NCBI GenBank assembly: GCA_016882305.1
Contig: VGQX01000014.1
Span: forward strand, 1 to 35,637
From: Cyanobacteria bacterium K_Offshore_surface_m2_239
GTDB taxonomy: Bacteria; Cyanobacteriota; Cyanobacteriia; PCC-6307; Cyanobiaceae
Direction of reading: 5' to 3'
DNA length: 35,637 nucleotides
Shown here: positions 14,691 through 31,948 of the stretch, piece by piece
How the letters are laid out: each line of letters opens with the position of its first letter
Position numbering within the stretch: the stretch's first letter is position 1
Notes under the pieces: generated by a model
What the model saw: the letters and a program-made list of their open reading frames with translations, nothing else
The model's database searches: none
What the model was told of the DNA's origin: nothing
Translations under genes and position numbers: made by a program

Positions 14691-15500
14691 TTACCCGGGT
14701 TCGGCCATGGGGCTTCGTTTCAAGGCTCCGATCCCTAAAAAGGACCCTTTCACTGAAGGGTATTGATCGATGAACTCTTCGGCGGCAAAAACGCCCCTTT
14801 CCAGTTCCTTCAGGGCCTGCCAGAGCGCTGTCGTTTCCGGACAGGCATCCGAGGAGATGTCGTGATGCACGATGATGCGCGCGCACTGCCGCGCCAGCAT
14901 GTGATCCGCCAGCGCTCCCCTCATGCTGTGGTCGCCATCGATGAACACAAAATCAGGGCACCTGTCCTCAAAGACGGCTTTGACGACAGGGCCAGTCGAA
15001 AAATCTTTGATGAATTGATAATCAATGCCATCACCCACCAGGTGTTCGCCGTAGCGCTTGATCATGGGCGTTTCGCCGATCGGATCGACGGCGATTGCCG
15101 AGGATAAGGGAGCGCCGATGCGACGCAGCCACTCACAAACAACAATGAACGTTCCGCCCCAGCGAGATCCGATTTCGACATAGTGTCTGGTTTCTTTGGC
15201 GTGCTCGGTCAACCAGGCGAGATAGCGGGACAGCTGGTTTGGATATTGAAAGACGTGGAGGCCTGTCCCCATGAATGGGGAGAGTTCTTGGGGTTGCTCA
15301 TGCAAGTTCTCATTATTCAGCCCCAAGGCGGGAATCAGCTCTGTTTCGAGATAGGTGATGTCTGTCAGCTTGTCGTCGGGGATGGCCTTGATCAAGTGGC
15401 TGGCCACAAGCGAAGCGGCATCATTTTCTTGAAAGTAATCCCAGCGATCTTGCAGGGGGTTGGTCTTGTGTATCCATCGTCTAAGGACGCGTTTGAGCAT
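14691..15500 (-). CDS. SAM-dependent methyltransferase (Methyltransf_24/CmcI-like)
   Basis: This 269-residue protein has 'YVEIGSRWGGTFIVV' as the SAM-binding motif I, 'IAVDPIG' for motif II, and 'DFVFIDGDHS' followed by 'HHDISSD'. The last two give the Asp/His pairs typical of metal-dependent O-methyltransferases of the CmcI/Methyltransf_24 type. Residues 1-100 form an N-terminal helical lead. The substrate is unknown; such proteins often modify glycans or secondary metabolites. The start is an ATG at 15500 preceded by a very AT-rich stretch (15510-15545) that probably contains the promoter. The gene is AT-richer than the TRAP and moaB genes on either side, consistent with acquisition. Confidence 0.8.
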   Translation of the reverse strand: MLKRVLRRWIHKTNPLQDRWDYFQENDAASLVASHLIKAIPDDKLTDITYLETELIPALGLNNENLHEQPQELSPFMGTGLHVFQYPNQLSRYLAWLTEHAKETRHYVEIGSRWGGTFIVVCEWLRRIGAPLSSAIAVDPIGETPMIKRYGEHLVGDGIDYQFIKDFSTGPVVKAVFEDRCPDFVFIDGDHSMRGALADHMLARQCARIIVHHDISSDACPETTALWQALKELERGVFAAEEFIDQYPSVKGSFLGIGALKRSPMAEPG

Positions 15501-15631
15501 GGAGGTTGAAACTATTTATTTTTTTATAAAATTACTTGCAAAGATCTCGGTTGTCAAGCCGTCCTCCATGTCTGCTCCCGGCTCCTCTGCCACCGGGCCT
15601 CGGGCCGCGCCTCCCCCGCAGCGAGGTTGCT

Positions 15632-16189
15632 TCAGCCTTCAGCGTTCAGGCCCGGCAGGCGAGCGGATCCTTCCGTCGCCGGCTGATCCGGTGATTCACG
15701 CAACCGGGGGAGGAGTTGCACCAGGTTGCAGGGACGCGTGTCGGCGTCCAGCTGGGCGCGGATCAAGCGATCCCAGGCGGTTTCCACCGCGTCGCGTGAA
15801 CCGGGCAGGACAAACACCAGCGTGCCGTTCGCCACTCCGGCCAGGCAGCGGCTCTGCAGGGTGCTCGTGCCGATCGTTTCGAACGACAGCACACGAAACA
15901 GCTCCCCGAATCCCTCGATCACTTTGTCGAGCAGGGGCGCCACCGCCTCCGGGGTGCCATCCCGGCCTGCCAGCCCCGTGCCGCCGCTGCTGATCACCAC
16001 CTGCACCCCGGGATCCGCGATCCAGCGGCTCATCTCCGCGCGAATGCGGTAGCGATCGTCCGGCACGATCGCCCGCTCTCGCAGCTGGTGTCCCGCCGCC
16101 TCCAGCCGTTGCCGCAAGGCCTCGCCGGAGTGGTCATCCGCCAGGGTGCGCGTATCCGACACCGTGAGCAAGGCAATGGCCAACGACAC
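15632..16189 (-). CDS. moaB: Molybdenum cofactor biosynthesis protein MoaB/Mog
   Basis: This 185-residue protein starts at a GTG at 16189. It shows 'ALLTVSDTRTLADDHSG' near the N-terminus, the molybdopterin-binding 'VISSGGTGLAGRDGTPEAV' and 'LPGSRDAV' near the C-terminus. MoaB/Mog proteins adenylylate molybdopterin before molybdenum insertion by MoeA. The C-terminal tail of about 20 residues is extra. The other Moco genes lie 8-12 kb downstream. Confidence 0.93.
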   Translation of the reverse strand: MSLAIALLTVSDTRTLADDHSGEALRQRLEAAGHQLRERAIVPDDRYRIRAEMSRWIADPGVQVVISSGGTGLAGRDGTPEAVAPLLDKVIEGFGELFRVLSFETIGTSTLQSRCLAGVANGTLVFVLPGSRDAVETAWDRLIRAQLDADTRPCNLVQLLPRLRESPDQPATEGSARLPGLNAEG

Positions 16190-16271
16190 GTGTTCAGGGT
16201 GGAGGAGCGTTCATTCTCCCTTCTTGGCGGCGTCAGGGATGGCAACGGCCGTTACTAGAGGCGGCACCGAG

Positions 16272-16315
16272 GGTTGCCAGGGATGGCGTCGGTGGTTGCC
16301 AGGGAAGGTGTCGGG
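16272..16315. repeat. Two tandem 22-base repeats upstream of the desaturase-like gene
   Basis: Copies at 16272-16293 and 16294-16315 begin GGTTGCCAGGGA and differ at three positions. They lie in the 252-base gap between the divergent moaB and oxidoreductase genes, 126 bases before the ATG at 16442. Closer to that ATG, a short direct repeat of CCCTCTCTCAC occurs within 16408-16432. Both could be binding sites or simple slippage products. Confidence 0.75.
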
Positions 16316-16441
16316 ACTGACGGATGGCTCGGTCCGCGCCTAAACTGTCGCTAATGAACGATGCGGTCTTCACTCTCCTGGTCTCGCCGAGCCTTGCGGG
16401 TGCAATCCCCCTCTCTCACCCCCTCTCTCACCTCTGCTTTC

Positions 16442-18646
16442 ATGACCTCTTCCCCCAAGCCATCCGCCGTTGTGGTTGGGGCTGGCATCGCTGGTTTGTC
16501 TGCCGCCTTTGTGTTGGCCCAACGAGGATTTCAGGTGACGGTCTTTGAGAAGGAGACAACGGCGGGCGGCAATCTCGGCGCCACCCTCTCCCATCCACGC
16601 CGCAGACGTTCAAGCCGTGGAGATGATGTTTTCGAGGTCTATCCTCATATGTTTGGCGACTGGTATGCCAACTTTTGGCAACTGATGGAGGCAATTGGTA
16701 GAGGCAAAGCTGACCGGGAGACATGGAGGACGATGGCAGACTTTAAGTTTCTGCCCAGGCCCGATCAGCCGGAGAAGCGCTTTCGCCCCGCCTACAAGAC
16801 GCTGCGCAACAATGGTGCGCTCTTGAGCTTTTTCTCCAATCTTTTCTCAGGTATCATTCCGCCTCCAGATATGTTTCTAGCGGCCTATGCCGCGCTTGGC
16901 TTGTTGGCCGATGATTTTAATAATAGAGACGATGTCAACGTCGCCACGTTGAATGACTTTTTGAACACGCGCTTTTACAGCTCTAAGCACGTTACCCAGT
17001 TTTATCAGATGGTGATCCTCTATATCTGGTCGCTGGACGCTGATGAATCTTCTGTCTATGCCTGTCAGCGTTTCTTTCAATTTCAATTCAGGCGGCCAAC
17101 GCCGACCGCTTGGGTCTTGAATTCTGGTGACGCTTACACGAGTATCATCCAACCCTTGGTTCAACACCTGCAGAGCAATTTTAATGTCAAGTTCTGCTTT
17201 GATACGCCTGTCGTCGCCGCCTCTTTGAATGCGGAGAAAACTCGCGTCGAGCAACTCCTGGTCATTGAAAACTTGAGCGAAAAGCGAACGTTCAAGACCG
17301 TGCCCCAGAAACGGTTTCTTCTCCCTGCATCCGTGTATGTCTTTGCTGTGCCACCCGAGACGCTCTCGGCCCTTGTGCAAACACCTGTTCCCGCCTCCGT
17401 CAGGAAGCGGGGTTTGACCGCCGAGCCCGACGTGACGCTGGGTTCGAATAAATTTGGCATCCTTACGGACGTCCTGCTTGGGGGATCCCGTGCCGGCTCG
17501 GCGCCAGCGTCTCCCGAGGGCGTCCCCGCCGCTGAAGTGGTGTCCCTTGAAGCCATGGAGGGAGTCACCGTGCTGGAACCGGATGTCCCTGAAGAGGGTT
17601 TGGCCTCGCGGACCGCTGCCAGTTCTTCCGCTGCGCCAACCCCAGTGCGTCCATCCATTGTCGATGCGATTCCGGAATTGGCGACAACGAAAACCTTCAG
17701 CGCGGAACCGATTCCGGTTCTCTATGTCGCCTTTGAGCAGGGAGCTGAAATCAACTCCTTAATTCCCCCAGACTGCTATATCGGGCTTACCGATTCAAAC
17801 TATGCATTGACACTGGTTGAGATCACAAGAGAGTTTAGGATTGCCAATCCAAATCTGTTCTCCTCCGCTGACCCTATCGGTATGGTCATTGCTTTGGCGG
17901 CATCAGATTTTGGCGAATTACCATTTTTTCGCACCCCTCCGGCGAAGTTGGACCCACCAGACAGCAGTCATACGGCAACGCCTGCGGACACACAATTATT
18001 GGAAGACAAAACAATCCAACTGCTGCTTGATGAAGCCCGTAAATATCTGCCTATTCGTGATGAAGACATAGAATGGCGTTTCTTTCGCTCGAACAAAAAC
18101 CACCGACTGTTTCTCAACGATGTTGAAAGTGCTCGCAATCCTGTGAAAACAATCTATTTGAACCCTGCCAGTTCTCGGCCGATCATTGATAATCTCGCTT
18201 TTGCTGGTGATTTCTGCAGTCAAGACGTGGTGATGTCCACTGTCGAAGCTGCGGTGGAAAGCGGAATTCGTGCCGCTCTGCAGTTGGAGCCGGGCCATGG
18301 ACAGCTCCTGTCGGCAAGCGCGAAGGGCAAGCGTTTGACGTTGCAACAGCATCGTTCTTATCCAAAATCCTGGATCACGGCTTCGAAACTCATGTTAATG
18401 CCCTATGCCGTACTCGCAAAAAGTTATTCAGATCTCAATCTTTGCTGGGAAACAGCGAGCCGCAGCCACCGCGATCCCACAGTGCTGAAGCAGGAGCTCC
18501 TGCCACAAGTGCTCAGCTACTGGCCCCGCCAAACCTCAATGTGTCTTGGCGCCTATCAAGATGCCTGGACGACCATGACGTCCCTGGCCACCCAGAGCAT
18601 GATCACGTCAGCGGAGTTGGTTTGGTCATTGTTCACCCGCCGCTGA
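16442..18646 (+). CDS. FAD-dependent oxidoreductase, phytoene desaturase/amine oxidase-like
   Basis: This 734-residue protein starts at an ATG at 16442. The N-terminus has a dinucleotide-binding motif (VVVGAGIAGLSAAF, then 'VTVFEKETTAGGNLG', residues about 10-47). The C-terminal FAD motif is 'NLAFAGDFCSQDVVMSTVEAA' (about 583-604). This is the layout of phytoene/zeta-carotene desaturases and hydroxysqualene dehydroxylases. Two things are unusual: a low-complexity Ala/Pro/Ser/Glu-rich stretch at about 345-418 that splits the core, and about 120 residues after the FAD motif, helical with many aromatic residues. It is much longer than the usual 450-500 residues. It converges with an isoprenyl diphosphate synthase gene (14-base tail overlap), suggesting an isoprenoid substrate. 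It is AT-richer than the Moco genes. Confidence 0.75.
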   Translation: MTSSPKPSAVVVGAGIAGLSAAFVLAQRGFQVTVFEKETTAGGNLGATLSHPRRRRSSRGDDVFEVYPHMFGDWYANFWQLMEAIGRGKADRETWRTMADFKFLPRPDQPEKRFRPAYKTLRNNGALLSFFSNLFSGIIPPPDMFLAAYAALGLLADDFNNRDDVNVATLNDFLNTRFYSSKHVTQFYQMVILYIWSLDADESSVYACQRFFQFQFRRPTPTAWVLNSGDAYTSIIQPLVQHLQSNFNVKFCFDTPVVAASLNAEKTRVEQLLVIENLSEKRTFKTVPQKRFLLPASVYVFAVPPETLSALVQTPVPASVRKRGLTAEPDVTLGSNKFGILTDVLLGGSRAGSAPASPEGVPAAEVVSLEAMEGVTVLEPDVPEEGLASRTAASSSAAPTPVRPSIVDAIPELATTKTFSAEPIPVLYVAFEQGAEINSLIPPDCYIGLTDSNYALTLVEITREFRIANPNLFSSADPIGMVIALAASDFGELPFFRTPPAKLDPPDSSHTATPADTQLLEDKTIQLLLDEARKYLPIRDEDIEWRFFRSNKNHRLFLNDVESARNPVKTIYLNPASSRPIIDNLAFAGDFCSQDVVMSTVEAAVESGIRAALQLEPGHGQLLSASAKGKRLTLQQHRSYPKSWITASKLMLMPYAVLAKSYSDLNLCWETASRSHRDPTVLKQELLPQVLSYWPRQTSMCLGAYQDAWTTMTSLATQSMITSAELVWSLFTRR

Positions 18647-19556
18647 GTTTGCGGGTTTCTGCAATCAAGGCATACAGAGGTTCTGGATCATTGGCAAAGA
18701 GCTCTGCCTCCTTTCTGGCCTGGCTGACGACTTGATCCAAATATCTTTCCGCTTCAGGCAATTGCATTTGGAAGGCCTTGGATAGATGTTGCAGATCTTC
18801 AAGCGATGGACTCTCCTTGCTGAAGAGGCTGCCAATTTCAGGGTCACGAATTGCGAGAGCTGCTGGCAAGGTGAGAATGCCATCCCGTAAATCCTCCACT
18901 CCTCCGCCACCAAGTGCCGCGCTGCCGCGTACATCTCCAACGTCGTCGCAGCCGTGATACAAGAGTCCAAGCAAACCTCCAAATGTGCGCAGGCGGCCGC
19001 TGCGATCCGCTAAACATGCACAGATCTCAAACATGGAACCCGTGTCCTCGGCTGCGATATGCCGCCAATCCTCCACCCCCAAAACCTGCCTGCGCAGCCG
19101 CCACTGCAGGCATTCAGCTACCCCAAGTCTCTTCATTAATTCCGAGAAGAGTTCGATGGCCTGTACATCTGTTCCCAGCATCCTGTAACCTTCAGCCACC
19201 ATGTAACCCGAAGCCATAAGTGCATCTAATTCTCCAAACTTCTGGTGCAATGTTGCCCGCCCTCGTCGTTCTGGGGATTTGTCCAATATGTCGTCAATCA
19301 CCAGGGTCATGTTATGGAAGAGCTCGATGACCACGGCGCAGCGGATCAACCAATCCGGTATCGGCAATTCTGGAATCAGAGACCGATAGGTTGAAAAGAT
19401 GGTTAAAGGTCGGAAATATTTTGAACCAGAAATGAATTGCCAGCGCAGCTCTGGGATCATTTCCTTGTCGCAGCTTTCCACCCACTCCGCGAGCTGGGTT
19501 TCGACTAAAGATACCTCGCGGCGAAAATTTAGGTTGTCAACAAAAGAGAGGTTCAT
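18633..19556 (-). CDS. Isoprenyl diphosphate synthase (polyprenyl synthetase family)
   Basis: This 307-residue all-helical trans-prenyltransferase starts at an ATG at 19556. The first Asp-rich motif is DDILD (residues 88-92), followed by 'ERRGRATLHQKFG'. The second is DDVGD (204-208), followed by 'DLRDGILTLP'. The diphosphate-binding region is altered: 'GSKYFRP' replaces the usual GGKRxRP, keeping Lys and the last Arg. The Lys usually found after the second motif (GK) is replaced by Gly in 'LGGGG'. These changes may affect allylic substrate binding. A bulky Met lies five residues before the first motif, so product length cannot be set confidently. It is not the housekeeping GGPP synthase type and likely serves a special pathway with the neighbouring oxidoreductase. 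Confidence 0.85.
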   Translation of the reverse strand: MNLSFVDNLNFRREVSLVETQLAEWVESCDKEMIPELRWQFISGSKYFRPLTIFSTYRSLIPELPIPDWLIRCAVVIELFHNMTLVIDDILDKSPERRGRATLHQKFGELDALMASGYMVAEGYRMLGTDVQAIELFSELMKRLGVAECLQWRLRRQVLGVEDWRHIAAEDTGSMFEICACLADRSGRLRTFGGLLGLLYHGCDDVGDVRGSAALGGGGVEDLRDGILTLPAALAIRDPEIGSLFSKESPSLEDLQHLSKAFQMQLPEAERYLDQVVSQARKEAELFANDPEPLYALIAETRKLSGG

Positions 19557-19618
19557 TGTCGTTGTGGTTTATTCCGGGATGGGGGACGGCGATGCGTTGA
19601 TGGATGACTTCCGCTTGG

Positions 19619-20053
19619 TTATTTGTGGGCCTCGTCACGCTGTCGGGCTTCAGCCTGGGCTAGCTGTTCAGTGATCAAGGCCAACTGGTGCTGAAAACTT
19701 CTCGCTTCACGGGATGCCGTATCGCCAATTTCCCTGAGAAAGCCGCGGATGTCATCAATGAGCAAAGCTCGTCTGCGCTTGGTGTCCTCGTCGCCAAAAT
19801 TGAGAGCAAGCAAGGAGGCCTGATGCTTGTATAAAATAGACTGAACTGAATAACTATAGCTTAAGGAGCTGGACGCCGCGGCGGCCAGGGCCTGCAGCAA
19901 TGCACGGGAGATGGCGCCAACATCGCTTGCCTCTTCGCTTCCCGGAACATTGGCGCCAGCGGGGCCTGGTGGAAGGAGCGACTGGGAGAGGGTTAACCAC
20001 TGCTGAAACAACAAATTATAATTATTCATAAGCTCTTCGATGGACGATTTCAT
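19619..20053 (-). CDS. Small helical protein, phasin-like, unknown function
   Basis: This 144-residue protein starts at an ATG at 20053. It is mostly helical: 'ELMNNYNLLFQQWLTLSQSLL' at the start, an Ala/Ser-rich helix 'SRALLQALAAAASSSLSYSYS' in the middle, and a charged C-terminal helix 'LITEQLAQAEARQRDEAHK'. A Gly/Pro hinge separates the first two. The pattern resembles phasin and PhaE-type proteins that coat lipid or polymer granules, but I cannot place it in a family. It lies 62 bases upstream of the prenyl synthase gene on the same strand and divergent from the cyclase gene, so it is probably co-transcribed with the synthase. Confidence 0.55.
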   Translation of the reverse strand: MKSSIEELMNNYNLLFQQWLTLSQSLLPPGPAGANVPGSEEASDVGAISRALLQALAAAASSSLSYSYSVQSILYKHQASLLALNFGDEDTKRRRALLIDDIRGFLREIGDTASREARSFQHQLALITEQLAQAEARQRDEAHK

Positions 20054-20142
20054 GTCAGCACTTGATTGACAGCAGGTATCTTATCATCGCTCTTTGTTAA
20101 AATCCCTGCAAGTTGCGTTATGGTGACACTGTAAGCCGCTGA

Positions 20143-20164
20143 CTTGACCTCGGTCCTTGTCAAG
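20143..20164. promoter_or_regulatory. Inverted repeat in divergent promoter region, candidate operator
   Basis: CTTGAC-N10-GTCAAG is a perfect six-base inverted repeat spanning 22 bases in the 126-base divergent region between the 144-residue protein gene and the cyclase gene. A second imperfect dyad (TTGTCA-N5-TCACAA, 20157-20173) overlaps it. Twenty-two bases is the size of a Crp-family operator, and a Crp-family gene lies 3.5 kb downstream. Binding is an inference. Confidence 0.35.
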
Positions 20165-20179
20165 TAATCACAACAGTTG

Positions 20180-23100
20180 ATGATGCTTCCTGTATCACCT
20201 TGTGCCGGTTGTGGAACGGTCAACCCTGTTGATCACAATTTCTGTTACCACTGTGGGACCGCGCTGCGCCTAGCCCCCTGTCCTGATTGCGGTTTCGCGA
20301 ATGCACCCGGGCAGGTTGTCTGTGAGCGTTGCGGGGGCTTTTTGCAGACAAAGGGCGACCAGGCTCTGTTTGACCGACAGGATGAGCGCAAATTCGTCAC
20401 CGCCTTTTTTGCAGATATCAAAGGTTCTGTGGCTCTGCTCAACGAGCGGGATATCGAAGACGGGCGTCAGATCTTAGATACCGTCATTCTTCGAATCAGC
20501 TCTCTGATCAGAAGGCATGAAGGGACCGTGATTGATACGGTGGGTGATGGTGTATTTGCCCTCTTTGGTGCACCGCGCTCCCTGGATGGCCATCCGCGAG
20601 CCGCCGTGAATGCGGCTTTGGAGATCCAAGACAGCATGGGCAGTCCCCAAGGTTCAGAACCTTTGCTGCCGGACATTCAACTTCGTATCGGCATCGATTC
20701 AGGGGACGTCATTTGGAGAGCTTTGCAGGTTGGTCGTGAGATGCGACACCTGCCGATTGGTCAGACCGTGAACCAGGCTTCCCGTTTGCAGGAGGTTGCT
20801 GAGCCTGGCACTGTCCTGATTGGCGCAAGCACGTATGAGTTGGTGAAAGACTATTTCAATCTCACACCCCCGAGGAACCTTGTTCTCAAGGGATTACCTG
20901 ATCCTGTGAATGCGTATGAGGTGCTGAATCCGTCGAATGTCTCTCGTAATTTGCAGATTTCGATGAAGCGTGGATTGAGTTCTTTTGTTGGGAGGGATCG
21001 GGAGCTGCGAACTCTGTCTGAATCCATTCAACGCTTCGAGGGCGGTGCTGGCACGTCGATGATCCTTGTTTCTGAAGCGGGAGGAGGTAAATCACGTCTT
21101 CTGTACGAAGTGACAAAAACCCTGGAACATAAGTTCACTATTCTTGAGGCTTTCTGTATTTCTCATATGCAGTCCTCACCATGGTATTCCGTTGTTCAAC
21201 TAATCAGAAATCTGTTGGGAATCTCGTCGGGTTTGGCGAGCTTGGAAGCGAAGCGACTGATCAAAGAAAAAATCGAATGGCTTCATCCTGCGTTGTTGGA
21301 AGATCTGCCAACCCTTTTTCAATTCCTTGATTTGGATCCTGGTTTGGTTTTGCCAGCGAATACCGATCCCACAGTGCGGAAACGAAAATATATTTCTCTG
21401 ATTCTTCGCTTGCTTGCTTTGCAAGCTAAGCGTAAACCTCTGGTTGTGATCTTTGAGGATCTTCACTGGTTGGATCAACAATCTTCCGCCGTTGTTGATG
21501 CGATTGCTTCCATTGTTCATGAAAATCCAATTTTTCTCTTGTGTACAACTCGTCCGGAGGGACTCAAGCCCGCCTGGCGATCGGACAAGTCGTCTATTTT
21601 GCACCTCGGCAATCTTGACATCACGGCTGCACGTGAGTTGATTCAGAGTTTGGTTCCAGGCTTGGCGATCAGTGACTCTCTGCTCAAGGAAATCCAGCGT
21701 AAAACACAAGGTAATCCTTTCTTTATCGAGGAAATTGTTCGTTCGCCGCAATTTGTTGACTCTTTTTTGTCCAGTACATCTTCTTTTGAGGTGGATTCAC
21801 TCGTTATACCCTCGACGATCAAGATGGCCATAGCGGATCGGATTGATCGATTGACAAAAAAAGAAAAGAGATATCTGCAGATGCTGGCTGTTGCTGGTAT
21901 CCGCTGCCGAGTCCCACTCTTGGTTCGATTGATTGCGGAGGAGGAAGCTGGCGTGTTGAGTGTTCTGGCTGATCTGGAGAATCTAGGCTTTGTTGTAAAG
22001 CCTGATCATGAAGACAAGCTTCATATTCAATTTGGTCATGTCCTGATTCAAGAAGTGGCTTATTCTTCTTTGCTCCGCGACCAACGCGCGGCCCTTCATG
22101 AGCACATTGGCGATACTATCCAATCGGAATCTGCTGAGATAACTAGTGAAATTCTTCCCGAACTCGCCCACCATTATCTCCACTCCGCCAACGACGTCAA
22201 AGCGGTTGAGTATTTGCACTTGGCGGGTGAATCCGCTATTCAGCGCTCGGCCCATCAAGAAGCGCAGAATTATCTCAAGCTTTGTTTGAAGCGCCTGGAA
22301 AAAAGCAAAAATCTTCAATCCAAATCCACCTACCTTGCCCAACTCTGGTTGTCCCTTGGGGTGTCACAACAGGTCACTCTCGGCTATGCCGCTGAAGATG
22401 TCAGGACGGCCTATGAGAATGCTGTCGACCATAGTGAAAAGGCTGGCGAATCGGAAAGCCTGCTCGCTTCGCTGCGCGGTTATGGAATCTTTAATATCGT
22501 TAAGGCAAATTATTCAGAAGCGGCCAAAATCGCCGTCCGCTTGAAGAGCCACGCCAAAGGAGATTCGGCTTTTGCCTTGGAGCATCTCATTCTTAGCGGT
22601 TTGGCTTATTCCTATCGTGGTGAGCTGGCAAGAGGGGCGAAATTCTACCAGAAGGGTCTTGAAATCACTGACAAGCCCGCGTCGGCTACGACGATTCAGT
22701 ACTCGGGCTACTCCCCGGGAATCTGCCACTCTTATTACGCACTCAATGCCCTTTTCTCTGGTCGTCTGAATCTGGCCATTAACCATGCGTGTAGAGGCCT
22801 TGAGGTGGCGCTGGAGAGTGGAATTCCCGTGGCCATTGCCCAGTCGCGTGGCATGTTGGGTCACGTGTTGTTTTGTCTCTCTGAATTTAGTCAGGCAGAT
22901 GAGCAGCATCACATCAATATGGCTTTTGCTGACGACAATGGTTTCGCCTATTGGTCCTTGCTGGCGCGGATCTTGACCAGCTGGACGAATGGCTATCTTC
23001 GCAACGAGCAATCCTCCCTGGATGAACTGCAGGCTTACATTGCCGCTTATCGAGGCAGCGGGGCATTGATCGGCGTGCCCTGGTTCCTGAACCTTTATGC

Positions 23101-23488
23101 CGAGCTGCTCTGGCGTTTTGGTCGCGCCCGGGAGTCCTTGGTGGTTCTTGGCGAGGCAGAGGGCATCGCTTCCCTGACGCAGGAGCGGTTCTTCTTGGTC
23201 GACACCTTAAGGCTGAAGGGGGAATTGCATTCCGCTCTGTCTTCGAAGCCCGTCTCGTTGGTCGCGGCCCAGTGCTACAGAGAAGCTCTTAATCTGGCTC
23301 GCGTTCAGGGAGCCTGGTTGCCGGGGATGCGAGCGGTGTTACCCTTGTCGCGGCTCCTGCGGCGGCAGGGAGATCTGGAGGAGGCGCGCACCTTGATCAC
23401 AGATCACTACAACCGACTCTCCTGGATTCCTTGTCCAGATCACACGGAGGCCCGTTCCTTGATGGAGACGTTGTCCGCGCGGATCTGA
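20180..23488 (+). CDS. Zinc-ribbon / class III nucleotide cyclase / AAA ATPase / TPR signalling protein
   Basis: This 1102-residue cytoplasmic protein has four parts. Residues 8-51 hold two zinc ribbons (C8/C11/C22/C25 and C34/C37/C48/C51). Residues 68-255 are a class III adenylate/guanylate cyclase domain with metal-binding D79 ('FADIKGS') and D123 ('TVGDG') and transition-state N198/R202 ('VNQASR'). From about 270 there is an AAA/STAND ATPase with Walker A (EAGGGKS, 299-305) and Walker B ('VVIFEDLHWLD', from 422). The rest is helical repeats of TPR type. The residue at the adenine-specifying Lys position appears to be D119, so substrate choice is uncertain. I chose ATG 20180; a TTG at 20177 and an ATG at 20183 are adjacent. 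The gene is clearly AT-richer than its flanks. It may act as a sensor or switch for the neighbouring isoprenoid genes. Confidence 0.88.
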   Translation: MMLPVSPCAGCGTVNPVDHNFCYHCGTALRLAPCPDCGFANAPGQVVCERCGGFLQTKGDQALFDRQDERKFVTAFFADIKGSVALLNERDIEDGRQILDTVILRISSLIRRHEGTVIDTVGDGVFALFGAPRSLDGHPRAAVNAALEIQDSMGSPQGSEPLLPDIQLRIGIDSGDVIWRALQVGREMRHLPIGQTVNQASRLQEVAEPGTVLIGASTYELVKDYFNLTPPRNLVLKGLPDPVNAYEVLNPSNVSRNLQISMKRGLSSFVGRDRELRTLSESIQRFEGGAGTSMILVSEAGGGKSRLLYEVTKTLEHKFTILEAFCISHMQSSPWYSVVQLIRNLLGISSGLASLEAKRLIKEKIEWLHPALLEDLPTLFQFLDLDPGLVLPANTDPTVRKRKYISLILRLLALQAKRKPLVVIFEDLHWLDQQSSAVVDAIASIVHENPIFLLCTTRPEGLKPAWRSDKSSILHLGNLDITAARELIQSLVPGLAISDSLLKEIQRKTQGNPFFIEEIVRSPQFVDSFLSSTSSFEVDSLVIPSTIKMAIADRIDRLTKKEKRYLQMLAVAGIRCRVPLLVRLIAEEEAGVLSVLADLENLGFVVKPDHEDKLHIQFGHVLIQEVAYSSLLRDQRAALHEHIGDTIQSESAEITSEILPELAHHYLHSANDVKAVEYLHLAGESAIQRSAHQEAQNYLKLCLKRLEKSKNLQSKSTYLAQLWLSLGVSQQVTLGYAAEDVRTAYENAVDHSEKAGESESLLASLRGYGIFNIVKANYSEAAKIAVRLKSHAKGDSAFALEHLILSGLAYSYRGELARGAKFYQKGLEITDKPASATTIQYSGYSPGICHSYYALNALFSGRLNLAINHACRGLEVALESGIPVAIAQSRGMLGHVLFCLSEFSQADEQHHINMAFADDNGFAYWSLLARILTSWTNGYLRNEQSSLDELQAYIAAYRGSGALIGVPWFLNLYAELLWRFGRARESLVVLGEAEGIASLTQERFFLVDTLRLKGELHSALSSKPVSLVAAQCYREALNLARVQGAWLPGMRAVLPLSRLLRRQGDLEEARTLITDHYNRLSWIPCPDHTEARSLMETLSARI

Positions 23489-23633
23489 ACAAGCCGGAGG
23501 GAGCCAAAGCGAACCCTCGGGCTGTTCGCCGGGTTTAGGACCTCTGGCCCGCTTGACCCTTGGGTGCTGGAACGGGGGTCTCGCTCCCTGCTTCGTGCCT
23601 TTACAATGGTTACCTTGTGCGTCCGGCGCGCCC

Positions 23634-24329
23634 ATGGCCAGTGGGTACAGGATCCTCGAAGCCATCACGGCTGACCTGCGGGAGCGACTCCTGCATGATC
23701 ATCGTGTTGTTTCGGTGCCCGCCAATCACCACTTGATGTTTGCTTCCGATTGGGGAGAGGACGTTTATCTTGTCCATTCTGGTATAGCCAAAGCACGTAG
23801 TCTCAGCGAACAAGGTGAGGAAACTGTCGTTTCTTTGATGGGTCCGGGATCACTGATTGGTGATCTCGCGGTCTTCACTACGCTATCCCTAAGGACGGTG
23901 GATGTGATCTCTCTCACACCCATCACATTCTGGAAACTGCGTCATCGCGCGCTTCAGGAGGCCATGGAGAGCAGCCCGGATTTCATGCGCGTCATCGCCT
24001 GTCTGCAGGCTCACCGCTTGTGTTCCCTCGGGGAGCGCCTGATGCTGATGAACGAAGACGCCACCACCCGGCTGTTGGCGACCTTGTCCTTGCTGGCTCG
24101 GCTCAATGGGCCCAATGATGACCCCTTTCAGCCGGTTCCGGCCATTCCCCAACAGGAGATCGCGGTGATCTCCGGTCTCTCCAGGGGAACCGCTTCCACG
24201 CTGATCAACAAGTTGCGCGCCAATAGAACCCTGGAACCGACGGATGATGGTCTGCGGTTCACCACCCTGGTGCCTCTGCAGCGGCGTGGCCTCTTGCCGC
24301 CGCTGAAGCCCCCTCCCGCGCAGCCCTGA
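23634..24329 (+). CDS. Crp/Fnr-family transcriptional regulator
   Basis: This protein of about 231 residues starts at the ATG at 23634 (an open extension to 23553 lacks family features). The N-terminal half is a cyclic-nucleotide-binding-type beta barrel with 'GEDVYLVHSGIAKA' and 'MGPGSLIGDLAVF'. A dimerisation helix follows, then a C-terminal winged helix with 'IPQQEIAVISGLSRGTASTLINKL'. The glycine and Glu/Asp pattern at the ligand pocket (GDLAVF, with Asp where cAMP-binding proteins have Glu and no following Arg) departs from the cAMP consensus, so the ligand may be something else. It lies 145 bases after the cyclase gene and 16 bases before moaD, so it could serve the cyclase-linked island, the Moco/nitrate genes, or both. 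It is not NtcA: the helix-turn-helix differs and NtcA is usually highly conserved. Confidence 0.85.
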   Translation: MASGYRILEAITADLRERLLHDHRVVSVPANHHLMFASDWGEDVYLVHSGIAKARSLSEQGEETVVSLMGPGSLIGDLAVFTTLSLRTVDVISLTPITFWKLRHRALQEAMESSPDFMRVIACLQAHRLCSLGERLMLMNEDATTRLLATLSLLARLNGPNDDPFQPVPAIPQQEIAVISGLSRGTASTLINKLRANRTLEPTDDGLRFTTLVPLQRRGLLPPLKPPPAQP

Positions 24330-24345
24330 CCCCGCCGAGCCCCTG

Positions 24346-24642
24346 TTGTCCACTTCCCTCCCCGCCCCCGATTCCCTCCCTGCGGTGCGCGTGCGCCTGT
24401 TTGCCTCCCTTCGGGAAACGGCCGGCTGGAGCGAGCGGGAGGTGCCGTTGCCCGAGGGCTGTGCCCTCAATCCCTGCACGCCCCGTCGCCTCTGGGAAGG
24501 CCTGGCCTCCCCCGCCCACGCCCTTCCCTCCAGCTTGCCCCCGGGCTTGCGGGTGGCCATCAATCAACGTTTCGCCACCCCTGACACCCCCCTTCAGCCC
24601 GGGGACGAACTGGCGTTTCTGCCCCCGATCACCGGAGGCTGA
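24346..24642 (+). CDS. moaD: Molybdopterin synthase small subunit MoaD
   Basis: This is an approximately 98-residue ubiquitin-like sulfur carrier. 'VRVRLFASLRETAGW' opens the fold and the chain ends with 'LAFLPPITGG', whose C-terminal Gly-Gly is activated by MoeB and carries the thiocarboxylate. The start is uncertain: a TTG at 24346 gives a 13-residue leader, and GTG codons just before 'RVRLFA' are alternatives. It sits 16 bases after the Crp-family gene and six bases before moaE. Confidence 0.88.
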   Translation: MSTSLPAPDSLPAVRVRLFASLRETAGWSEREVPLPEGCALNPCTPRRLWEGLASPAHALPSSLPPGLRVAINQRFATPDTPLQPGDELAFLPPITGG

Positions 24643-24648
24643 GCCGCC

Positions 24649-25131
24649 ATGGCGCAGCCTGCTCCCGCTCTGATCCTGGTGAGCCTCCATCCGGAGGCGT
24701 TGGCGCCGGGGGAGCTGCTGGAGGCCTGGCACCAGCGGGTGCAGCGCGCGTCTGGCGCCGCCCCGGCGGCCACCAGCGTGTTCATCGGACGAACGCGGGG
24801 CACCACGGACGCGGGCTTGCCCCTCGACGGCCTGGAGCTGGAGCACTACCCGGGGATGACGGAGGCCGAGCTGGAGCGCCTGGCGGCCGAGTCCGCGCGA
24901 CGTCACGGGGTCTGGGCGGTTGGCGTGGGCCACCGGGTGGGGCCTGTTGCTCCAGGGGAGGCGATTGTGGTGGTGGCGGTGCTGGCCGACCGGCGTGGGC
25001 CGGCGCAACGCTGCTGCCAGGAGGTCTTGGAAGCCCTGAAGCACGAGGCGCCGTTCTGGAAGCGGGAGTGGAGCGCCGGCCAAGGCGTCTGGGTGGCTGG
25101 CAACACGCCGTTGGCGGAACCGCTCCCCTGA
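24649..25131 (+). CDS. moaE: Molybdopterin synthase large subunit MoaE
   Basis: This 160-residue protein starts at an ATG at 24649. A GGAGG ribosome binding site lies at 24634-24638, inside the end of moaD, one of the few clear ones in the window. MoaE features are 'TSVFIGRTRG', 'LELEHYPGM', 'HRVGPVAPGEAIVVVAV' and 'LEALKHEAPFWKREW', the last containing the catalytic lysines. It pairs with MoaD to convert cyclic pyranopterin monophosphate to molybdopterin. Confidence 0.93.
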   Translation: MAQPAPALILVSLHPEALAPGELLEAWHQRVQRASGAAPAATSVFIGRTRGTTDAGLPLDGLELEHYPGMTEAELERLAAESARRHGVWAVGVGHRVGPVAPGEAIVVVAVLADRRGPAQRCCQEVLEALKHEAPFWKREWSAGQGVWVAGNTPLAEPLP

Positions 25132-26570: not shown

Positions 26571-27560
26571 ATGGACCAAGTGAGAAGCATAAATCTTTTT
26601 GCATTTGGCTTCACGCCAACCACCAAGACCGCCTCTAGTAGTCGCTGGCGACGTGCCGGCTGGAAATTGAAAAGAATTAAACAATTATGCTTTCACTGTC
26701 ATAATTTTGGTGATTTCCTGTCTTATCAGCTGGTTTCAGCCCTGTCAGAGAAAGGCGTTCGGATCGCTGGTCAGGACGAGGGGGGGAAATTGCTGGCGGT
26801 TGGCAGCATCCTCTGGAGCCTGCGTGATCTGGATGTGATCTGGGGAAGCGGGGCCCATCGGGAGGGTCAGATCCCGCGCCGTCGAATTGCAAATTGTTTT
26901 GCGGTCAGGGGACCGCTGACGCTGGCTGAATTGCAGCATGCGGACGTTGTCAGCGGCGAATGTGACCCTCTCTTTTTTGACCCCGGCATCCTGGTATCCT
27001 TCTTATATCCTGATCTATGCAAAGCCGATCGAATCAGTGGTAAAACTGTGGTCATCCCTCACTACACGGATGTCGTCAGGGTGAGGCAGTGGCAAAAACG
27101 GGCGGGTATCAGGCTCGAGGTGGTCGACCCACTGGATCACCCATACAAGGTGGCCAAGCAAATCGTTCGGGCCGAGCGCGTGATCTCCTCTTCGCTTCAT
27201 GGCCTGATTTTTGCTGACGCCTTCGGTCGATCTGCTGTTCCCTTGCGGCTGGATGGCAATCGCGAGCCAAGCTTCAAATACGTCGACTACTACCAGGGCT
27301 CCGGTCGCTCAACACCAAGATTTTCCTCTGATCTCTCCGCAGCGCTTGATCGCCATCCCAGCCCTTTTCACTATCGCCGTGAAGATCTGTCTCGCTTCCT
27401 CGCCAGCTTCCCCTACCCGATGAAGTCGGCCTTTACCCGTCAGCTTTCGGATGGTCCCGTGTCGGGGTGGCGCCAAGGTCCATGCCGGCCGCCCTCCTTC
27501 TCCAACAGCCGCACAGGGCCGAGCGTCATCCCAGGGTCCACGGACTTTAGCATGTCGTAG
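26571..27560 (+). CDS. Polysaccharide pyruvyl transferase family protein
   Basis: This 329-residue protein starts at an ATG at 26571. It has the family order '[16 protein letters not shown]', '[12 protein letters not shown]', 'VIWGSG', 'FAVRGPLT', '[11 protein letters not shown]', 'VVIPHYTD' and '[15 protein letters not shown]', as in ExoV/CsaB-type enzymes that add pyruvate ketals to glycans. It is a likely exopolysaccharide or cell-wall modification enzyme, standing alone without other glycan genes. The last 40 or so residues run antisense through the conserved end of moaC (121-base overlap) and have no family character, so the natural stop may have been lost. The first 150 bases are AT-richer than the flanking genes. 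Confidence 0.8.
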
Positions 27561-29653: not shown

Positions 29654-30742
29654 TCAGTGCGGTGGGGCCAGATCCGGATGCAACGCCCGGGAGGGTTGAT
29701 CCATGCCGGGCCGCAGGGGCGACACTGCGGTGCGATGGAGCAGGGCGAGGATGCGCCGCCGGGAATGGCGGGTGGGCATCAGGGCCGCCAGGGGGCGGAG
29801 CCGACTGCGGCGGCGCTTGTGGCTGCGCACCCCCAGGAGGATGTCGTAAAGGAAATTGAGTGCATCCGCGCGGCTCTCGAACAAGCCCAGGCGTTGGGGT
29901 GATCCCTTGGCGTCAAGGAGATGGCGGGTGGCCAGATAGGCCGGTCGGTATTCAAACCAGGGGATCGAGGGCCAGAGATGGTGAACGAGGTGATAGTTCT
30001 GCCCCATGATCAACCAATTCATCAGGCGGCTTGGGTAGACGCGGGCGTTGTGCCAGCGGCTGCGTGAATGAAAGGGGCGATGGGGCAAATAGTCGAAGAA
30101 CAGCCCCAGGGTGACGCCCACCATCAGGGCCGGGGCAAACCAGCAGTTGAAGATGAAGGGGAGAAAGTCGAAGCGAATCGCCGCCAGAATGATCAGGACA
30201 AACGTGGCCCGCTCCAGGCCCCAGGCGAACAATTCATTGCCCCGCCAGAGCGCTCGCTGGAAAAAGAACACTTCGTGATAGAAAAACCGCGGCGCGATCA
30301 GCCAGAGCGGGCCGAACGTGCTGACGATGTGATCCGGGTCATGCTCCGGATCATTGACGTGGGCGTGATGTTGCAAGTGCACCCGCGTGAACACCGGAAA
30401 GCTGAAGCCCAGTAACAGCGCGGCGCCATGGCCCATGACCGCGTTCCAAAAGCGATTCGGGTGGGCGGCGTTGTGGCAGGCGTCGTGGATCACTGTGCCC
30501 TCCAGGTGGAGGGCCAGAAACCCGAGAGCGAGCAGCACAGGCAGGGGCCAGCCGGCGCCGAACCAACCCCAGACGGAGAGTCCTGCCAGGGCGTAGCCGC
30601 CCAGGAACAAGCCCACGGTGGGATTGAGGGCGGGCGGTGGATCGAGAAAGTCTTTCGGGACCGTGCGCACGGCTTGAGGCACGGGAGTGGTGTGCGGCCT
30701 GCTTGGGGAGGATGCCAACGCGGGCGTCGGGCAGGGCGGCAT
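29654..30742 (-). CDS. crtR: Beta-carotene hydroxylase CrtR (fatty acid desaturase superfamily)
   Basis: This 362-residue membrane protein starts at an ATG at 30742 (a GTG at 30772 would add ten residues). It carries the His boxes 'HDACHNAAH', 'HLQHHAHVNDPEHDPDH' and 'NYHLVHHLWP', plus 'HRPFHSRSRWHN', all typical of CrtR. It hydroxylates beta-carotene rings to make zeaxanthin in the thylakoid and plasma membranes. The C-terminal 60 residues are Arg-rich and longer than I expect. Strong support for a cyanobacterial host. Confidence 0.93.
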   Translation of the reverse strand: MPPCPTPALASSPSRPHTTPVPQAVRTVPKDFLDPPPALNPTVGLFLGGYALAGLSVWGWFGAGWPLPVLLALGFLALHLEGTVIHDACHNAAHPNRFWNAVMGHGAALLLGFSFPVFTRVHLQHHAHVNDPEHDPDHIVSTFGPLWLIAPRFFYHEVFFFQRALWRGNELFAWGLERATFVLIILAAIRFDFLPFIFNCWFAPALMVGVTLGLFFDYLPHRPFHSRSRWHNARVYPSRLMNWLIMGQNYHLVHHLWPSIPWFEYRPAYLATRHLLDAKGSPQRLGLFESRADALNFLYDILLGVRSHKRRRSRLRPLAALMPTRHSRRRILALLHRTAVSPLRPGMDQPSRALHPDLAPPH

Positions 30743-30918
30743 GGAAGGGGTCACCTGGCGCGGGGAAGACACCGCTGAGCGGCCAACACCTTAAACAAAC
30801 GCATCAAAGACCGAGGGAGGGCCGCCTCCTGCGCCGAACCCGCAGCCTGGTTCGGCTCGTCGTCCCCGGGTGCCTTGCCTGGCTGTGAGCAAAGACCAGC
30901 GGGGGGGCGTCAAGGCGG

Positions 30919-31866: not shown

Positions 31867-31948
<82 letters not shown>

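Follow-up and report, generated by a model that had tools for sequence, protein, structure and literature searches.

A putative isoprenoid cassette with a nucleotidyl cyclase and a Crp-type regulator between moaB and moaD of a cyanobacterium

Five genes between moaB and moaD

The window analysed here is a stretch of 35,637 nucleotides of contig VGQX01000014.1 (assembly GCA_016882305.1) from Cyanobacteria bacterium K_Offshore_surface_m2_239, a member of the Cyanobiaceae. At 16442-24329, between the molybdenum cofactor (Moco) genes moaB and moaD, it carries a set of five genes in which isoprenoid-type enzymes stand beside a nucleotidyl cyclase protein and a Crp-family regulator. Open reading frame, Pfam and NCBIfam matching confirmed the genes, strands and order that a first-pass annotation of the DNA had proposed:

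16442-18646, plus strand: flavin adenine dinucleotide (FAD)-dependent oxidoreductase of the amine oxidase/desaturase superfamily (longest open reading frame from 16361; motif VYPHMFxDWYxNFW)
18633-19556, minus strand: trans-prenyl diphosphate synthase homologue (PF00348 at 1.7e-31, 109.8 bits against a cut-off of 27; 14 bases at its 3′ end are shared with the FAD gene)
19619-20053, minus strand: 144-residue orphan protein (62 bases upstream of the prenyl synthase gene, on the same strand)
20177-23488, plus strand: double zinc ribbon, class III nucleotidyl cyclase, AAA_16 and TPR protein (DZR 4e-8, Guanylate_cyc 1.2e-20, AAA_16 9.2e-17; TPR match below its cut-off)
23553-24329, plus strand: Crp/Fnr-type regulator (cNMP_binding 1e-14; separated from the cyclase gene by 64 bases; possible ATG start at 23634)

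The FAD enzyme, for which alignment to a homologue favours the start at 16442 over that at 16361, matches PF01593 at 9.2e-13. Its top NCBIfam match is the hydroxysqualene dehydroxylase HpnE (TIGR03467, 2.3e-18). It shares a superfamily with HpnE and the carotenoid desaturases, but it is paired with a prenyl synthase and its 66.8 bits fall far under the HpnE cut-off of 283, which argues against membership. None of nine window proteins run against Pfam matched a squalene/phytoene synthase family, so 'phytoene desaturase', the likeness noted at first pass, should be taken to mean no more than an FAD enzyme in the amine oxidase/desaturase group. Its predicted structure (mean predicted local distance difference test score (pLDDT) of 39.9) was too poor for a fold search. 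Its own genome was the only one with the protein among 292 cyanobacterial genomes (three candidates scored per genome), and again among 42 genomes of the genus; tblastn returned no plasmid record at 1e-10, and viral contigs yielded none.

The prenyl synthase keeps the PF00348 domain, both DDxxD motifs, the lysine of the GSK..RP motif and the RRG of canonical trans-prenyl diphosphate synthases. In such enzymes, the lysines at the KKT, GKE and EGK positions bind the allylic diphosphate. Among eight aligned members of the window's subfamily, the DDxxD motifs DDILD and DDVGD are invariant, whereas the second lysine of KKT is replaced by aspartate, the lysine of GKE by glycine and that of EGK by isoleucine in all eight, in agreement with the altered diphosphate-binding residues noticed at first pass. 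The three lysines are retained in all eight synthases aligned from the cassette types B and C described below (four per type). The lysine-free subfamily occurs in 7 of 296 Sphingomonadales genomes and in 1 of 292 cyanobacterial genomes, the window's, and a draw of 329 genomes of the sphingomonads' phylum returned it only in the Parerythrobacter genome itself (up to seven candidates per genome were scored in one of these searches); among the genomes drawn, it was seen outside the window only in Sphingomonadales. The window synthase matched no plasmid record at 1e-15 (tblastn), and a plasmid search with a sphingomonad synthase gave two records, at just 24-29% identity.

The 144-residue protein had been called phasin-like, a label that we dropped because no Pfam profile (at 0.01) or NCBIfam profile (at 0.1) matched it; nothing found speaks for the accompanying suggestion that it stores or coats the product, and any role in the cassette would be putative. 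It was found in 1 of 60 genomes, namely its own, and in no plasmid record at 0.01 (tblastn). A low-confidence model (mean pLDDT 53.5), too poor for a fold search, is helical.

In class III cyclases, two metal-binding aspartates, an asparagine and an arginine are catalytic-site residues, and a lysine specifies the base. The window's cyclase domain (PF00211, 74.3 bits against 21.9) retains the metal-binding aspartates, the asparagine and the arginine, in FADIKGS, VGDGVFALFG and VNQASR. A TOMM kinase/cyclase fusion was considered and rejected (294.5 bits against the TIGR03903 cut-off of 705.75). The regulator's cyclic nucleoside monophosphate (cNMP) domain scores 54.7 bits against 27.5 for PF00027, and its winged-helix matches (HTH_Crp_2, 20.3 bits against 27, and two others) all lie below their cut-offs. 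The domains assigned at first pass are right, with the TPR match under its cut-off.

Recurrence of the gene kinds

A search with Crp, made in the genus alone, found matches in 20 of 42 genomes, 25 in total. Each of the 25 neighbourhoods was then checked for likeness to the FAD enzymes, prenyl synthases and cyclases of types A, B and C. All three are present in nine; these nine sets amount to three architectures, and the genome counts are not independent events. Type A is the window. Type B (G341, G024 and G034) comprises Crp, cyclase, DUF3237, a Linocin_M18 shell (a family-1 encapsulin) and an FAD/prenyl synthase fusion of 959-998 residues. In type C (G002, G006, G008, G018 and G023), Crp and cyclase lie beside an FAD enzyme, a small protein and a prenyl synthase; the type C locus L094 adds an NADP-binding protein and a 440-residue protein that has no Pfam match. 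With the cyclase as query, 12 matches were obtained in 11 of the 42 genomes, 9 of them in sets with FAD enzyme, prenyl synthase and Crp, the same nine. By contrast, none of 12 moaE control neighbourhoods held an FAD or prenyl synthase gene, and the single control with a cyclase and Crp was G341's own cassette, approximately 8 kb away. Independent scattering of the gene kinds, which would have counted against the first-pass proposal, was not what the genus showed. Some neighbourhoods were short or ended by contig ends (shortest 5.4 kb).

The G341 cassette (L063 3494-14580) lies in a Moco cluster between moaA and moaB, a different place from that of the window cassette. The two cassettes are unlike, yet their Crp genes are 61% identical and both sit inside Moco clusters of one genus. 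No moa gene was matched near the cassettes of G024, G034 and the five type C loci. Of 16 genomes searched for the family-1 shell (PF04454), only three had it, each of them a type B genome, and the window's genome had none; no search for family 2 shells was made. A Ruegeria plasmid carries, as annotated by others, a row of cyclase, family-1 encapsulin shell, DUF3237, FAD enzyme and polyprenyl synthetase, with no adjacent Crp. Cyclase relatives lie on 221 plasmid records; seven neighbourhoods were read, of which the six annotated ones list no prenyl synthase and the seventh is unannotated (the gene tables available for plasmids are incomplete). In G027, a broken and an intact type B-like cyclase stand in tandem (L144 7487-12726), with no FAD or prenyl synthase gene in the 19.9 kb read.

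The enzyme pairing also recurs in sphingomonads. A peptide-pattern scan of one genome per species across 84,980 species found a single relative of the FAD enzyme, in Parerythrobacter lacustris (28% identical; Sphingomonadales), where its gene immediately precedes that of a prenyl synthase sharing 58% identity with the window protein. Seven of the 296 Sphingomonadales genomes carry an operon of a geranylgeranyl-reductase-family enzyme, the FAD enzyme and the prenyl synthase (55-58% identical to the window's), the three together in all seven loci; the reductase of L018 scores above the TIGR02032 cut-off. At L015 (8779-10214), the match to the FAD gene is split between two pieces and two frames, and the prenyl synthase and reductase are whole. 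In three of the seven loci, the operon adjoins a protein with TIR, degenerate cyclase, AAA_16 and TPR regions, which aligns with the window cyclase protein over 950-1060 residues (24% identity, 3e-50 to 3e-52). Close orthologues of this TIR protein (E = 0) occur in 3 of the 296 genomes, all of them operon-bearing; a fourth match, at 29% identity, is distant (up to two candidates scored per genome). In three other loci, a fusion of a cNMP domain and thioredoxin reductase follows the operon, and the seventh has an acyl-CoA-ligase-like gene instead, judged by reading. Pfam was run on two of the three TIR proteins and two of the three cNMP fusions, and the third of each was judged by alignment (L015 for the cNMP fusion). 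The pairing of FAD enzyme and prenyl synthase is conserved, and the module is repeatedly accompanied by cyclase and cNMP-domain proteins. The coordinates of these rows and proteins, and of a further neighbour of Crp, are:

L063 4769-13440, L092 2-7925, L099 11101-19429, L103 4030-12199: encapsulin shell, cyclase, DUF3237 and FAD/prenyl synthase (the last two functions fused in cyanobacteria, separate in Ruegeria)
L014 9884-13411, L016 5038-8655, L018 5293-8901: TIR/AAA/TPR proteins, catalytic residues of the cyclase-like region gone
L094 5886-9512, L096 10541-14218, L098 10657-14343, L100 10469-14125: 1208-1228-residue protein, alike by reading, next to Crp

Base composition and origin

The Moco genes that flank the set are as follows:

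15632-16189, minus strand: moaB (left flank; 88% identical in two genomes of the genus)
24346-24642, plus strand: moaD (right flank, precedes moaE; TIGR01682 8.7e-16, 58.5 bits, under the cut-off of 66)
24649-25131, plus strand: moaE (right flank; present by match in 40 of the genus's 42 genomes, counting its own)

Two flanking genes show that the contig is in keeping with its genome: moaE is matched across the genus, in 39 further genomes among the 42 searched and at 53-70% identity for the best matches, and the gene at 29654-30772 is the carotene hydroxylase CrtR, above its cut-off. Among 12 moaE neighbourhoods fetched from the genus, moaB was matched in two, approximately 1 kb from moaE in G341 and 2 kb in G020, without the five cassette genes in between; in the other ten, moaB lay outside the fetched stretch.

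Mean G+C content is 52.1% in 14 island windows of 500 bases against 67.0% in 54 flank windows (Mann-Whitney p 1.8e-7; Crp was excluded from the island windows, as were three border windows). This bears out the first-pass observation that the DNA is AT-richer through the cyclase gene; a composition equal to that of the flanks would have spoken against an island. G+C at third codon positions is 0.54-0.59 in the first four genes and intermediate, 0.68, in Crp, against 0.79-0.91 in 14 of 16 flanking genes (0.61 and 0.66 in the remaining two). Four flank windows are below 56% G+C, so AT-rich patches are not confined to the island. Low-G+C genes (55-56%) of methyltransferase-like and pyruvyltransferase-family kinds lie on either side, at 14691-15500 and 26571-27560, and are perhaps further acquired genes. 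Repeats in 15500-16460 and 16100-24700 comprise three two-copy direct and two inverted families, none of which marks both borders. The single tRNA found is at 31867-31948. Promoter patterns (7 found, 4.0 expected) and terminator patterns (9 against 10.0) were uninformative.

A tree built from 23 cyclase proteins places that of the window together with five Cupriavidus/Burkholderia plasmid proteins (100/100). The TIR proteins make up a separate group, the type B proteins of the genus join the cassette-free G027 protein (100/100), the Ruegeria protein falls among rhizobial ones (86/87), and type C joins a long-branched cassette-free protein (86/88), a joining flagged by a program warning. A single clade of the 13 cassette cyclases was rejected (log-likelihood lower by 379, approximately unbiased test p 1.85e-76); the tree has long branches, the test was run after the tree had been seen and the groups were set by gene neighbourhood. 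The cassette label changes at least five times on this tree, on which gain and loss are indistinguishable. Homology extends over 492 columns between the FAD enzymes of types A and B (99.5%, 4.5e-23), and the prenyl synthases of types A and B/C are homologous too (98.1%, 8.4e-14); the remaining comparisons, given below, are weaker. Because homology among the three types is uneven and a single cyclase clade is rejected, what recurs is a set of gene kinds and not one inherited block. Among the genomes drawn, the relatives of the prenyl synthase and FAD enzyme are in Sphingomonadales, those of the cyclase are on Cupriavidus/Burkholderia plasmids and those of Crp (54-63% identical) are in the same genus, to which the Crp search was confined; this points to a mosaic origin. 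The set in the window is probably not one imported block, and these patterns suggest that similar pairings were assembled more than once in other bacteria. Of the single acquired island first proposed, the foreign composition and the association of isoprenoid-type enzymes with cyclase and Crp stand; its import in one piece is improbable.

A proposed mosaic cassette and its alternatives

We consider it somewhat probable that horizontal transfer brought the five genes together as one mosaic cassette for making and oxidising a linear isoprenoid, with a cyclic nucleotide as its local control. Making or modifying the isoprenoid would fall to the FAD enzyme and the variant prenyl synthase, whose operon in sphingomonads includes the geranylgeranyl-reductase-type enzyme. 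The zinc-ribbon/cyclase/AAA/TPR protein may be a STAND-type sensor that, once triggered, would make a cyclic nucleotide; the neighbouring Crp would bind it and switch the cassette, and perhaps other genes. The first-pass proposal of a pathway that makes and oxidises an isoprenoid with a cyclase-based switch is partly supported, and its product and regulation stay putative.

Several observations weigh against this reading. Crp stands without FAD enzyme, prenyl synthase or full-length cyclase in 16 of its 25 neighbourhoods (five of the 16 show cyclase-domain matches of 95-200 residues), and 3 of the 12 cyclases have no FAD, prenyl synthase or Crp match nearby, two of these three being on short contigs (5.4 and 10.9 kb). 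Crp and cyclase were the starting points from which the sets of types B and C were located, so the counts cover only sets with at least one of the two. A Streptomyces plasmid (L104 5986-8740) carries an FAD enzyme 41% identical to type B, convergent with a polyprenyl synthetase; its annotation shows no adenylate/guanylate cyclase within 6 kb. On a Haloprofundus plasmid, a type B FAD relative stands without prenyl synthase or cyclase, and a Nocardia region looked at for the same purpose is unannotated. The 1208-1228-residue gene adjoins Crp in three of the type C loci listed, and in G030 without a cassette. The FAD enzymes of types A and C are only weakly alike (49 columns, 88.5%), and no likeness was found between their small proteins. 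The base-specifying lysine, the mark of class III adenylyl cyclases, is aspartate in the window cyclase and lysine in all seven plasmid proteins compared. The Crp pocket, IGDLAVF..LRTVDV, departs from the GE..RS phosphate-binding cassette of cAMP-binding Crp proteins (glutamate to aspartate, arginine kept); type C Crp has the canonical cAMP sequence, of which the window pocket is a near variant. The sphingomonad cNMP domains lack the pocket arginine, and the cyclase regions of all three TIR proteins lack the catalytic residues. These TIR proteins should make no nucleotide, so the common denominator may be AAA/TPR sensing and not the nucleotide. Loss of the base-specifying lysine was also considered as a mark of cassette cyclases and rejected: it is likewise absent from two of the genus's three cassette-free cyclases, and the remaining one is unmatched at the motif.

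The frequent occurrence of Crp alone would also fit an alternative in which the FAD enzyme and prenyl synthase are the true unit, and the cyclase and Crp are separate signalling genes parked in a hot spot of the Moco cluster. The cyclase relatives lie elsewhere than the enzyme relatives, and the Moco cluster of G341 hosts a cassette as well. However, the pairing recurs at seven loci of the genus without a nearby moa match, and again in three sphingomonads and on the Ruegeria plasmid, with cyclases that are not one clade. We regard the hot-spot explanation as a serious contender, on the unlikely side. A broader proposal, put forward as speculation that is more doubtful still, is that of an undescribed general design in bacteria. 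A unit of FAD enzyme and prenyl synthase, in some cases joined by a family-1 shell, would repeatedly be built beside a STAND-type cyclase sensor, isoprenoid and cyclic nucleotide would form one signalling circuit, and the type A synthase, lacking its three lysines, would be a non-elongating prenyl-binding or cyclising enzyme.

It is very unlikely that the cyclase protein and the TIR proteins related to it serve as immune sensors of the STAND type in a defence-like or stress module, for which the prenyl enzymes would make an effector or a sensed ligand. The cyclase domain matches Pycsar cyclase models (best 1.8e-13), the Crp cNMP domain matches Pycsar TIR-effector models (8.6e-9 and 1.4e-7) and the sphingomonad versions have a TIR domain. 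As in the Pycsar anti-phage systems, a class III cyclase domain stands beside a cNMP-domain protein; but the matches are limited to these shared domains, the window cyclase is fused to AAA and TPR regions, its neighbour is a Crp-type regulator and not a TIR or transmembrane effector, and its partners are metabolic enzymes. Pycsar membership was rejected on these grounds. That unrelated acquired genes came to lie in a single AT-rich island by chance, for which the other AT-rich genes of the window might speak, is hardly credible given that the same gene kinds stand together in three architectures and two phyla and in none of the 12 control windows.

The mosaic cassette can be set beside family 2B encapsulin operons, whose shells are described with polyprenyl transferase or terpene cyclase cargo (PMC8346489, as far as accessible). 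In both, prenyl synthase genes are linked to cNMP-type domain proteins, and type B cassettes include an encapsulin shell; but the type B shell is of family 1, a cyclase gene is present in the cassettes and the window's genome has no family-1 match. The words FAD, flavin, desaturase and DUF3237 do not occur in the main text of PMC8346489. The accessible part of a further paper reports that the 2B domain does not bind cyclic nucleotides (PMC12407261), and polyprenyl synthetases are listed among encapsulin cargo in the accessible part of another (PMC8086157). Cassettes of the present kind were undescribed in the literature searched, which left preprints (bioRxiv) and most subscription papers outside.

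If the link between the enzymes and the cyclase is real, these genes would define a class of isoprenoid cassettes that carry a cyclic-nucleotide sensor of their own, a form of control undescribed in the papers found. Type B would then be a family-1 encapsulin variant whose likely cargo is the FAD/prenyl synthase fusion, and the signal answered by prenyl-synthase-linked cNMP-type domains, an open question for family 2B encapsulins, would become testable. The lysine-free prenyl synthase subfamily offers a defined target for new enzymology.

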